NCBI GenBank assembly: GCA_024398055.1
Contig: CP073749.1
Span: 1,302,594-1,366,593 of the forward strand
Direction of reading: 5' to 3'
DNA from: a bacterium SCSIO 12741
GTDB taxonomy: Bacteria > Bacteroidota > Bacteroidia > Flavobacteriales_G > Salibacteraceae
Length of the DNA stretch: 64,000 nucleotides
Translations under genes and position numbers: made by a program
Part shown: piece after piece, positions 16,604-19,259 of the stretch
Layout of the letters: every line of letters begins with the position of its first letter
Numbering within the stretch: position 1 is the first letter of the stretch
The notes under the pieces: model-generated
Databases searched by the model: none
The model's input: only the letters and a program-made list of their open reading frames with translations
What the model was told of the DNA's origin: nothing

Positions 16604-16623
16604 TATATTTGTACCTACAAATA
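16604..16623 (+). promoter_or_regulatory. marR promoter with overlapping operator palindrome
   Basis: TATATTTG at 16604-16611 matches the -7 consensus TAnnTTTG. It overlaps a perfect 8-base inverted repeat, TATTTGTA and TACAAATA, around CC at 16606-16623. A repressor bound here would block transcription, which fits MarR autorepression. A half site, ACCTACAA, repeats just before the ATG at 16635. Confidence 0.7.
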
Positions 16624-16634
16624 ATTTACCTACA

Positions 16635-17063
16635 ATGAAAAGTGAGTATCATAACGCGGTGTTTCAAATCATCAAAACCGGTCACTGGATTACCGATATG
16701 GTTTCTCGGGAGCTTAAGGAATATGGAATTTACGAGCCCCAGTTCAACGTACTCCGCATCCTACAAGGAGCCAAGGGAAAGCCGGTTTCTGTAAATCGCA
16801 TATTAGAAAGTATGATTCAACGGTCGAGCAACATTACCCGCATTATTGATAAGCTGGAGGCCAAGGGTTTGGTGGAGCGCACATTGTGTTCAACAGACCG
16901 GCGCAAAATGGATATTGTGATAACTCCGGAAGGCAGTGCGCTACTGAAAAAGCTAAACAAAAAGGTAGATGAATTTCATAAACCAATGATGAACAACCTG
17001 ACTCCGGATGAAGCAAGAACATTAACTGAATTAATAATAAAACTCAAACAAAACGTAACATGA
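16635..17063 (+). CDS. MarR family transcriptional regulator
   Basis: This 142-residue winged-helix protein has the MarR layout: helices around FQIIKTGHWITDMV, a recognition helix in MIQRSSNITRIIDKLEAKGLV, and the wing with STDRRKMDIVITPEG. It lies directly behind a promoter-operator palindrome and overlaps the FMN reductase gene in ATGA. This is the usual arrangement for a regulator sensing electrophiles, quinones or oxidants and controlling detoxifying reductases. There is one cysteine, in the wing (CSTDRRK), so thiol sensing is possible but not shown. Confidence 0.93.
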   Translation: MKSEYHNAVFQIIKTGHWITDMVSRELKEYGIYEPQFNVLRILQGAKGKPVSVNRILESMIQRSSNITRIIDKLEAKGLVERTLCSTDRRKMDIVITPEGSALLKKLNKKVDEFHKPMMNNLTPDEARTLTELIIKLKQNVT

Positions 17064-17590
17064 AAAAGATTGTAGCCCTAGGTGGAAGCACAAGCAAAAC
17101 ATCCATCAACAAGAAGTTTGCGACTTATGTGGCCCATCAACTGGAAAACACCGAGACCGAAGTCGTGGATCTCAACGATTATGAACTACCCCTATTCAGC
17201 GTAGATCTGGAAGCGGAAATAGGATCTCCGGAAAATGCACAACGACTAAATGACGTGCTCGATTCTGCAGATGCCATTGTGCTTTCTCTTGCCGAACACA
17301 ACGGATCTTTTCCAGCTGCCTTCAAAAATGCCATGGATTGGGTGTCTCGAATTGAAATGAAGCTATGGAGAAAAAAGCCCATGCTGTTGCTCTCTACTTC
17401 TCCAGGAGGTCGCGGTGGAGCTTCTGTGTTAGCCACGGCTAAAACGCTATTCCCCCATGCAGGAGCCAACATTATAGCAGACTTCTCCCTTCCTTCTTTC
17501 CACAGTAATTTTAGTAAAAACGGTATCCAGGATGAGCAACTACGTGGCGCACTGGAAGATAAGATTCGGCAATTTCAGCAGGCTCTTTGA
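17060..17590 (+). CDS. NADPH-dependent FMN reductase family protein
   Basis: This 176-residue flavodoxin-like protein has the phosphate-binding start ALGGSTSKTSINKK and the signature AEHNGSFPAAFKNAMDWVSR, followed by LLSTSPGGRGG, all typical of the SsuE/AzoR-like NAD(P)H:FMN reductases. It should be a cytoplasmic flavoenzyme reducing FMN, quinones, azo dyes or chromate-like oxidants. Its ATG overlaps the marR stop, so the two are cotranscribed and probably autorepressed. The pirin gene starts 71 bases downstream from its own promoter region. Confidence 0.9.
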   Translation: MKKIVALGGSTSKTSINKKFATYVAHQLENTETEVVDLNDYELPLFSVDLEAEIGSPENAQRLNDVLDSADAIVLSLAEHNGSFPAAFKNAMDWVSRIEMKLWRKKPMLLLSTSPGGRGGASVLATAKTLFPHAGANIIADFSLPSFHSNFSKNGIQDEQLRGALEDKIRQFQQAL

Positions 17591-17622
17591 TCCTGCGAGT
17601 TGACCTTTTTTTACCCAAATAG

Positions 17623-17634
17623 ATGTATATACAT
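17623..17634 (+). promoter_or_regulatory. Operator-like palindrome before the pirin gene
   Basis: ATGTATATACAT is a perfect 12-base palindrome with the core TGTA-N2-TACA, also found in the marR operator. It is followed by ATTATTTG, a near match to the -7 box, 22 bases before the pirin ATG. Confidence 0.6.
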
Positions 17635-17661
17635 TATTTGTACTAACAAAAAAATAAAGTC

Positions 17662-18516
17662 ATGCAAAAACAAGTCAAATCTATCTACGGATATTCCAGT
17701 ATCGACAACCTGGTACCCGGAGTTCGCGGGCAGCGAGCCTTTCCCACCCGAGCCTTTCGGGAGTCGGATCCTTTTTTGATGCTCGACCACATTGGCCCTG
17801 AAAAAGTGGGGGCCAATTACTTCTTAAATGGAGAGGGTCACGACCATCCACACAAAGGGTTCGAAACGTTGAGCTTCCTGCTGGAAGGCACCTTATATCA
17901 CCGCGATTCATTGGGCAATGAGGAAACCTTGACTTCTGGATCAGTTCAACGCATGAATGCCGGATCGGGAATTATTCATGGTGGTGATATGGCCTCTGAT
18001 TCGGATACCGGACGATTTCACAGCGTACAACTTTGGGTAAACAACCCGTCCAACGAAAAGAATTCGAAACCTGGCATTCACAATGTGACTAACCAGGAGA
18101 TTCCTTTTTTGCTGGAAGGTGGCGCAAAACTCCGAGTAATTGCTGGCACCTTGAATGGTTTAAAAGGAAAAATAAAAACCAAGGCCACCACGCAAATTGG
18201 GCATTTGATTGCGGAGGGAAAAAGTAGCCTGGAAATAGGCACCTTCCCGAATGGTTACACCGTGATGGTGTATGTATTGGAAGGAGAGGCCGAAGTAGGA
18301 AATCGGGTTCTACGAGAACATCAATTGGCCACCTTGGAGCAAGAAGGAGATTCGTTAAGGATATCAACGTCTAAGCAGGCACAGCTTCTCATCCTTTCCG
18401 GAGCTCCTTTGAACGAACCCATTGCATTTGGAGGACCCTTTGTCATGAACACCCAGGAAGAAATTCGTCAGGCCCAGGTAGACTACGAATTAGGACGATT
18501 TGGAATCATTCAATAG
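17662..18516 (+). CDS. Pirin family bicupin protein
   Basis: The 284-residue product has the two-cupin pirin fold. The N-terminal cupin carries His62 and His64 in DHPHKGFETLSF and a third histidine at 106 in GSGIIHGGDM. In classical pirins the fourth ligand is a glutamate two residues after that histidine. Here the position is Gly108, with Asp109 next to it, so metal binding may differ. Some pirins act as quercetinases or redox-dependent regulators. The gene follows marR and FMN reductase, carries a related operator, and is two bases ahead of an outer-membrane protein gene, suggesting a stress-response unit. Confidence 0.9.
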   Translation: MQKQVKSIYGYSSIDNLVPGVRGQRAFPTRAFRESDPFLMLDHIGPEKVGANYFLNGEGHDHPHKGFETLSFLLEGTLYHRDSLGNEETLTSGSVQRMNAGSGIIHGGDMASDSDTGRFHSVQLWVNNPSNEKNSKPGIHNVTNQEIPFLLEGGAKLRVIAGTLNGLKGKIKTKATTQIGHLIAEGKSSLEIGTFPNGYTVMVYVLEGEAEVGNRVLREHQLATLEQEGDSLRISTSKQAQLLILSGAPLNEPIAFGGPFVMNTQEEIRQAQVDYELGRFGIIQ

Positions 18517-18518
18517 CC

Positions 18519-19259
18519 ATGAAAACCGTTCTTCTTTTCTTGTTGATTAGCCTTGGGACAATACCCTTATTCGCCCAACAAAGTGATTCCCTGGAAACGG
18601 ATAGCCTCCAATGGGAAATTCGAGCAGGCATGATGGGGCAATGGCAAAAGGGAAATCTAAACCAATGGAGCGTCATGCCAAATGCTCTGATTCGGGCGTA
18701 TAAAAAGACCTTTTTGGTAGAACTAATGGCCAAGTATTCCTACGTGCAAGTAGAAGGGATAACCCCAATCAATGACTTTTGGACCAAGGCTATTTTTCAG
18801 TACCGACCGACTCAAAGGCTCTATCCCGTGGCACACAGCATTAATGGATTTGCTAAATCCTTTGGAATCGACCATTCGTTTGTCAATGGTGTTGGCGGGG
18901 GAGTTAACCTCATCAAAAACAACAGCAGTTATTTGCAACTCCATGCCTTGGGTACTTACCTAAACCTGCAATTTAGTAACTCATCGCCCCACTCTTCTTT
19001 TGCCTTGGGAAGCCTCATCAGGGCCCGACTTCCCATTTCCAAAAACCTTTCCTTTCTTTGGGAACTGTCAACCTATCACTCCACTCGACAGAGCGCGTTT
19101 TGGGGAGGTGGAAATGAGGTTTCACTGGAGTTTAAAATCACACGTCGGTTTTTCGCCTTGATCAATCACCAGCTCTTTTACAACAATATTGCTGCGGAAG
19201 GCGTTGAGAAGCTGAATACACAAACCCTGCTTGAGCTAAGTTACCAGTTTAGAAACTGA
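18519..19259 (+). CDS. DUF481-like outer membrane beta-barrel protein
   Basis: The 246-residue product has a signal peptide (residues 1-20, ending LFAQ) and then alternating aromatic strands typical of a small outer-membrane barrel. The closing segment TQTLLELSYQFRN resembles a barrel end with a near-terminal aromatic residue. Similarity to DUF481 is by pattern, not a full motif match. It starts two bases after the pirin stop and is probably cotranscribed with it. The function is unknown. Confidence 0.75.
   Translation: MKTVLLFLLISLGTIPLFAQQSDSLETDSLQWEIRAGMMGQWQKGNLNQWSVMPNALIRAYKKTFLVELMAKYSYVQVEGITPINDFWTKAIFQYRPTQRLYPVAHSINGFAKSFGIDHSFVNGVGGGVNLIKNNSSYLQLHALGTYLNLQFSNSSPHSSFALGSLIRARLPISKNLSFLWELSTYHSTRQSAFWGGGNEVSLEFKITRRFFALINHQLFYNNIAAEGVEKLNTQTLLELSYQFRN

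Follow-up and report, generated by a model that had tools for sequence, protein, structure and literature searches.

A predicted MarR regulon with tandem TGTA-N2-TACA operators next to flavin reductase and pirin genes in the Bacteroidota bacterium SCSIO 12741

Introduction

Autorepression by MarR proteins bound at palindromic operators is a textbook kind of transcription control. The operators of Escherichia coli MarR and of SlyA-type regulators are short inverted repeats used for autorepression at the promoter, as predicted for the locus described here, but their half-site and their target genes differ from those of the present locus. To our knowledge, few mapped MarR operators come from the phylum Bacteroidota.

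A MarR-type quinone-sensing repressor, MhqR, is present in Bacillus subtilis and Staphylococcus aureus, and S. aureus MhqR is described as a non-thiol quinone sensor, with F11, F39, E43 and H111 forming the quinone-binding pocket of MhqR and the pocket His located in helix 5 (PMC6798810, PMC12893000). Its targets, as given there, include quinone reductases, ring-cleavage dioxygenases and, in B. subtilis, also nitroreductases. The locus analyzed here resembles that system in having a MarR-type regulator, a palindrome over the start region and a predicted reductase target. In contrast to MhqR as described in those sources, the pirin gene takes the place of the ring-cleavage dioxygenases, and tandem sites with a 15-bp spacing are found at two places. 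The operators are also different: that of MhqR reads TATCTCGAA-aTCGAaATA (9-9 bp), whereas TTTGTA-N2-TACAAA is found here, and the regulator is thus set apart from MhqR by its operator. HpaR (TIGR02337) gave the best NCBIfam match of the regulator, and the two have the MarR-family fold in common, but the match (54 bits) stayed below the HpaR cut-off of 121.2 bits.

As judged from titles and the first parts of abstracts, a literature search found no paper that describes this regulon. The predicted system would then represent a further case of known MarR control, with an unusually clear conservation footprint.

Results

Organization of the marR locus

The window, that is, the whole 64-kb stretch of DNA analyzed, carries on its plus strand the marR gene (16635-17063) for a winged-helix regulator of 142 amino acids, referred to as MarR-A. 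Both Pfam matches of MarR-A, PF01047 (41.6 bits) and PF12802 (41.0 bits), are above the cut-offs, placing it among proteins with the MarR winged-helix domain, and its close orthologs are 61-76% identical. On the same strand, the next gene (17060-17590; PF03358), of which the start overlaps the marR stop (17060 versus 17063), encodes an NADPH-dependent FMN reductase or azoreductase-like flavoprotein, with FMN reductase, the azoreductase YhdA and quinone and chromate reductases as the closest solved structures. After a gap of 71 bp follows, again on the plus strand, the gene for a bicupin protein of the pirin family (17662-18516; PF02678 and PF05726), the closest solved structures of which are YhaK and other pirins. 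The DUF481 gene for an outer-membrane-type protein (18519-19259, plus strand; PF04338) begins 2 bp further downstream and is probably co-transcribed with the pirin gene, as judged from this spacing. Upstream of marR, Pfam identified a pair of histidine kinase and LytTR response regulator; for the downstream neighbor, it gave only a weak, sub-cut-off match to a cNMP-binding domain.

The window pirin shows HGGD where aligned pirins carry H-x-E, at positions which we take to be the later metal ligands. HGGD is also present in the pirin ortholog of locus L224, and the pirins with this sequence may form a distinct subgroup.

Predicted operators in the window

The -7-like box of the marR promoter, TATATTTG (16604-16611, plus strand), fits TAnnTTTG, the -7 box consensus given in one report (PMC9723704). 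It is overlapped by the palindrome TATTTGTA-CC-TACAAATA at 16606-16623, with perfect 8-bp arms and a 2-bp spacer, which contains an exact copy of TGTANNTACA (TGTA-N2-TACA) with its core starting at 16610. The first-pass annotation had pointed to this overlap and to a related palindrome of 12 bp before the pirin gene, and both were confirmed: ATGTATATACAT (17623-17634) is a perfect palindrome, carries the exact motif with its core starting at 17624, and ends 27 bp 5' of the pirin ATG (17662). As that annotation had also noted, TGTA-N2-TACA is common to the two palindromes, and these are the only two exact copies within the 64-kb window. The first is the main site of predicted operator 1, and the second belongs to predicted operator 2.

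Overlooked at that time was a degenerate partner exactly 15 bp downstream of each exact site. The partner in operator 1, the secondary site TTTACCTACA (16625-16634), has one mismatch and abuts the marR ATG; the one in operator 2, TGTACTAACA at 17639, likewise has one mismatch and belongs to the sequence ATTTGTACTAACAAAA (17636-17651, around 17639-17648). It is ATTTGTACTAACAAAA, and not the perfect palindrome ATGTATATACAT, that occupies the position of the downstream operator in orthologous loci (site start 23 bp before the ATG).

Conservation of operator 1 among close MarR-A orthologs

Close orthologs (61-76% identical) were found as L046, L047, G124 and, within the family f56, as 12 loci from 11 of its 397 genomes; one genome, G443, carries two copies, G521 is the genome of L046, and L225, the same stretch as L046, was not counted. 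L047 provided the promoter only, as its contig ends early. One more f56 locus, L229, is a more distant relative (47% identical) and is included for comparison, so that the alignment of promoters has 16 rows, the window plus 14 close orthologs plus L229.

Exact TGTANNTACA precedes marR in 15 of the 16 rows, or, besides the window, in 13 of the 14 close orthologs; the exception, L221, carries TGTATCAACA instead. Its distance to the marR ATG is 25 bp in 13/16 rows, L221 included (12/14 close orthologs), and 24, 18 and 28 bp for L227, L165 and L229. All marR promoters but that of L165 (15/16) have TAnnTTTG at one and the same position, overlapping the site. A common form of the ortholog operator is TATATTTGTACCTACAAATAATGTAYRTGTTATG, with the conserved core TTTGTA-N2-TACAAA, and most orthologs show AATAATGTA or a near form at the position of the secondary site, whereas the sequence further upstream is far less conserved. 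A palindromic operator at its own promoter, as expected for the MarR family, is thus predicted for MarR-A from both sequence and conservation.

MarR-A itself is unevenly distributed: none of 34 genomes of the same family yielded an ortholog above 45% identity, yet orthologs of 64-76% identity are present in f56 genomes. G124 is the sole ortholog of 61-76% identity, besides the window's own, among 395 genomes of the class, and 385 of the 397 f56 genomes gave no match at the ortholog cut-off. Such a pattern might reflect horizontal transfer of the region 16635-17590.

Taken with the second site described below, we consider it quite probable that the two tandem operators are bound by the neighboring MarR-A and form with it a local, autorepressed regulon.

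Operator 2 and the downstream unit

The downstream side could be read in 13 orthologous loci (L046, L165, L217-L224 and L226-L228), and the FMN reductase gene adjoins marR in all of them except L228. A further exact copy of the motif is located before the next transcription unit in seven of the 13. L222 and L224 have at this place a pirin with 60-61% identity to that of the window, and L046, L217 and L226 have DUF481. In L220 the copy stands before the gene of an isochorismatase-like protein, and in L228 before those of a small protein and an isochorismatase-like protein; for the isochorismatase-like family, the assignment is based on Pfam in the case of the L046 member and on resemblance for the others. 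The order marR-FMN reductase-pirin was thus found in two other loci, both with exact TGTANNTACA before the pirin gene, and DUF481 homologs are present within the operon also in L046, L217, L222 and L226. Of the other six loci, L219, L221 and L223 have a convergent gene next, and in L165, L218 and L227 the gene that follows matches none of the window genes.

Further genes of the L046 run encode an isochorismatase-family hydrolase and a MATE exporter. A small protein with the string ILARGCDP (L046 6756-7160; also in L228 and L220) is located beside the isochorismatase-family protein, and its L046 copy gave no Pfam match.

Predicted operators of paralogous MarR proteins

We compared these operators with those of relatives nearer to another MarR of the same genome, encoded in a MarR-DoxX-YceI operon and referred to as type B. 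The promoter counts omit L066 (start codon not found) and L042 (less than 60 bp upstream), and duplicates were counted once. Type-B promoters carry the exact motif in 36 of 70 cases (0.51 expected by shuffling; one for the reversed-motif control) and the motif with up to one mismatch in 50 of 70 (7.72 expected), leaving 34 without an exact and 20 without even a one-mismatch site. In the same survey, the five rows labeled marR include L024, which is 40% identical, is not a close ortholog and has no motif. Around the 37 type-B promoters that show an exact site when 12 bp of coding sequence are included, 8 of the 15 neighboring second sites are located at +/-15 bp. A further copy of the motif occurs no more than 200 bp downstream of the marR stop in 11 of 71 type-B loci, in five of these at +22. 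In the window genome, the MarR-B, DoxX and YceI operon (L058 2634-4145) has operators before marR and between marR and doxX, the same layout as in the window.

The pirin operator could then belong to the paralog. ATGTATATACAT may be mainly the operator of MarR-B, or one common to MarR-A and MarR-B, making the window a node between two regulons; we regard this as a serious but tentative possibility. Exact type-B sites prefer A before the core (25/38), T after it (30/38) and TA in the center (16/38), and ATGTATATACAT shows all three of these preferences, resembling type-B operators in both flanks and center. The regions of the recognition helix are also similar (SSN-TR for type A, SNASR for type B), and beyond the window the motif precedes in the same genome two further marR genes including marR-B, doxX-yceI, yceI and a second pirin gene.

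The composite operator gave further information. A 19-mer of the orthologs, TGTACCTACAAATAATGTA, when searched with up to three mismatches in the window genome of 5.1 Mb, matched only at the marR operator and on the minus strand at 17648-17630, the pirin operator, with three mismatches there and with the AATAA spacer included; the reversed 19-mer likewise gave two matches. In 14 genomes, the 19-mer gave 72 matches, 21 within the marR-A operon and 51 outside. Among the 24 of these 51 that were inspected, 17 are inside ORFs, three are between ORFs with no related neighbor (L240 and L258 by eye, L272 by tblastn), and four directly precede a type-B-like marR gene (L260, L261, L262 and L268; 37-44% identity with A or B) that is followed by YceI or nitroreductase genes. 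These four matches, all in genomes with MarR-A, indicate that the predicted composite operator itself, not the core alone, is common to MarR paralogs, and they raise the likelihood that MarR-B also acts on the pirin operator. Against control by the paralog, however, operator 2 is found within the MarR-A loci themselves, and the partner at 17639 in the window shares its T and A flanks with operator 1 and is placed like operator 2 in orthologs. The flanks of ortholog operator 2 are mixed (A before in 6/7, A after in 6/7), and the paralogs are not cleanly told apart by them. Flanking bases failed as a clean discriminator between A and B also for another reason: T before TGTA in operator 1 doubles as part of the -7 box.

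The single MarR regulon of flavin reductase, pirin and outer-membrane protein (here DUF481) proposed in the first-pass annotation finds good support in the conservation of both operators, with one qualification: since the motif precedes at least three marR genes of the window genome and the composite operator precedes other marR genes in relatives, a paralog may bind the pirin sites too, or instead.

The type-C MarR proteins, relatives of a third paralog accompanied by nitroreductase and DoxX-like genes, had the exact motif in none of 7 promoters. In the window genome the third paralog heads a nitroreductase/DoxX-like operon (L059 4116-5633) with a different palindrome, TTTACATGTAAA, recognized by eye, and TTACCATGGTAA was recognized likewise in the type-C promoters of L072 and L074. 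For a fourth, distant MarR gene of this genome (L153 601-1029), GTTGTATATACAAC is located some 21 bp upstream of the start.

Putative promoter and terminator-like elements at operator 2

A terminator-like hairpin (17568-17605) followed by seven T residues (17606-17612) overlaps the 3' end of the reductase gene on the plus strand (17568-17612 in total; MFE -14 kcal/mol, z -2.8), although it was not called by a terminator pattern scan of the window. As the marR and pirin units are co-directional and close to each other, the pirin unit might be transcribed from the marR promoter, with MarR at operator 2 only tuning read-through. This reading, which we consider less likely than not, gains weight from the lack of TAnnTTTG at operator 2 in all nine aligned rows, the window included. 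Two observations argue against it. A clear hairpin with T-run before operator 2 is present not only in the window but also in L222 (z -2.4), L217 (z -2.5) and L224 (z -3.9), while the hairpin of L226 is weak (z -0.8) and plain folds of L046, L220 and L228 showed no convincing one. Moreover, in 5 of 7 orthologs the spacing between the second copy and an ATG is 25 bp, copying the arrangement at marR; these distances refer to the ATG that fits the alignment, longest-start ORFs placing some of the sites (for instance in L224) inside the ORF. With the missing TAnnTTTG and the uneven hairpin support, a separate pirin promoter at operator 2 is putative, though plausible, and our confidence in local control by MarR-A at both operators is slightly lowered by the lack of this box.

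Frequency of the motif

The two exact sites compare with 0.42 expected by chance in the window, a count reached in 6 of 100 shuffles, and sites with up to one mismatch are not enriched in number (21 versus 16.4 expected). In a genome-wide search, as suggested with the first-pass annotation, the bare motif was not over-represented (51 exact sites versus 96 for the reversed control). Of 12 intergenic exact sites, 7 precede genes of the MarR (3), pirin (2), YceI (1) and DoxX (1) families. The remaining five comprise L135, which directly follows a YceI gene, and L138, L141, L148 and L164. Of the 51 sites, 50 were listed, and they comprise 46 inspected singly (38 inside ORFs, 8 intergenic), two of the window and two of the paralog-B locus. 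By family, the motif was found with 2 of 4 pirin, 1 of 8 YceI and 3 of 15 MarR_2 members (3 of 13 over the cut-off) and directly upstream of none of the 3 FMN_red genes, the window reductase being reached through marR. A binomial estimate for the motif before 6 of 25 family genes gave about 1e-9 to 2e-12, a value that is indicative only, as the families were picked after the hits were seen and a uniform rate was assumed.

Motif counting in window and genome as the sole test did not decide; function is argued here from conservation and not from frequency, and the window count alone is weak. That the sites are two functionless AT-rich palindromes in adjacent intergenic gaps, as the only mildly raised window count and the commoner reversed motif in the genome would allow, is hardly credible in view of their position-exact conservation across genera and the family-wide enrichment.

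Reductase loci without MarR served as the control. The best FMN_red match of each of 30 genomes was taken, and MarR was sought by tblastn in flanks of about 1.5 kb. In the 25 loci without MarR, the motif was detected within 200 bp upstream of neither FMN_red nor the 12 adjoining pirin matches, and three loci with a type-C MarR had no motif either. Within this control sample, the motif as a predicted operator is associated with MarR-A/B genes and not with the reductase or pirin.

Mode of sensing

The sole Cys of the window MarR is kept in 8 of 14 type-A proteins and replaced by Ser in the other six; all 14 share a His within the C-terminal helical region. A thiol switch of the YodB/QsrR or OhrR type was rejected for MarR-A, as the Cys is conserved in 8/14 only. 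The unconserved Cys together with the conserved His favors, at the level of protein sequence, ligand binding over a thiol electrophile switch. This His can be compared with the pocket His of MhqR by region only. For the quinone or electrophile stress proposed in the first-pass annotation, the pointer is the kinship of the reductase, and a thiol electrophile switch is opposed by the Cys pattern. A small molecule, perhaps a quinone or a phenolic, would act as the inducer of MarR-A. Kinship of the reductase, together with the hydrolase and MATE exporter of L046, would fit detoxification of aromatic or redox-active compounds.

Discussion

As the predicted operator pair is closely conserved in relatives, one repressor probably controls through it a small set of redox and detoxification genes. 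For local control by MarR-A we propose the following sequence of events. A MarR dimer on TTTGTA-N2-TACAAA would cover the -7 box and the probable transcription start of marR, and from this position it would exclude RNA polymerase, shutting off marR and the FMN reductase gene. A second dimer would probably occupy the weaker copy 15 bp downstream, roughly on the opposite face of the helix, and might bind cooperatively. The terminator-like hairpin would end the first transcription unit, and the second tandem operator, located just after this hairpin, would repress the pirin-DUF481 unit likewise from a putative promoter there. Release of MarR-A by a small ligand would then induce flavin reductase, pirin and the envelope protein together.

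On a wider scale, we tentatively suggest a MarR network widespread among Bacteroidia, in which several paralogs would have in common the TGTA-N2-TACA core and even the composite tandem operator, have a further operator copy downstream of the regulator gene, and be subject to cross-talk, the pirin gene reading both MarR-A and MarR-B via neighboring sites. If this is the case, flavin reductase, pirin, DoxX, YceI and nitroreductase would be joined in one stress response.

The combination of a strongly conserved motif, a regulator and target genes makes this a directly testable regulon. Related operators tie together pirin, YceI, DoxX, DUF481 and FMN reductase, and the predicted regulon may help to find the inducer and to learn what bacterial pirins do.
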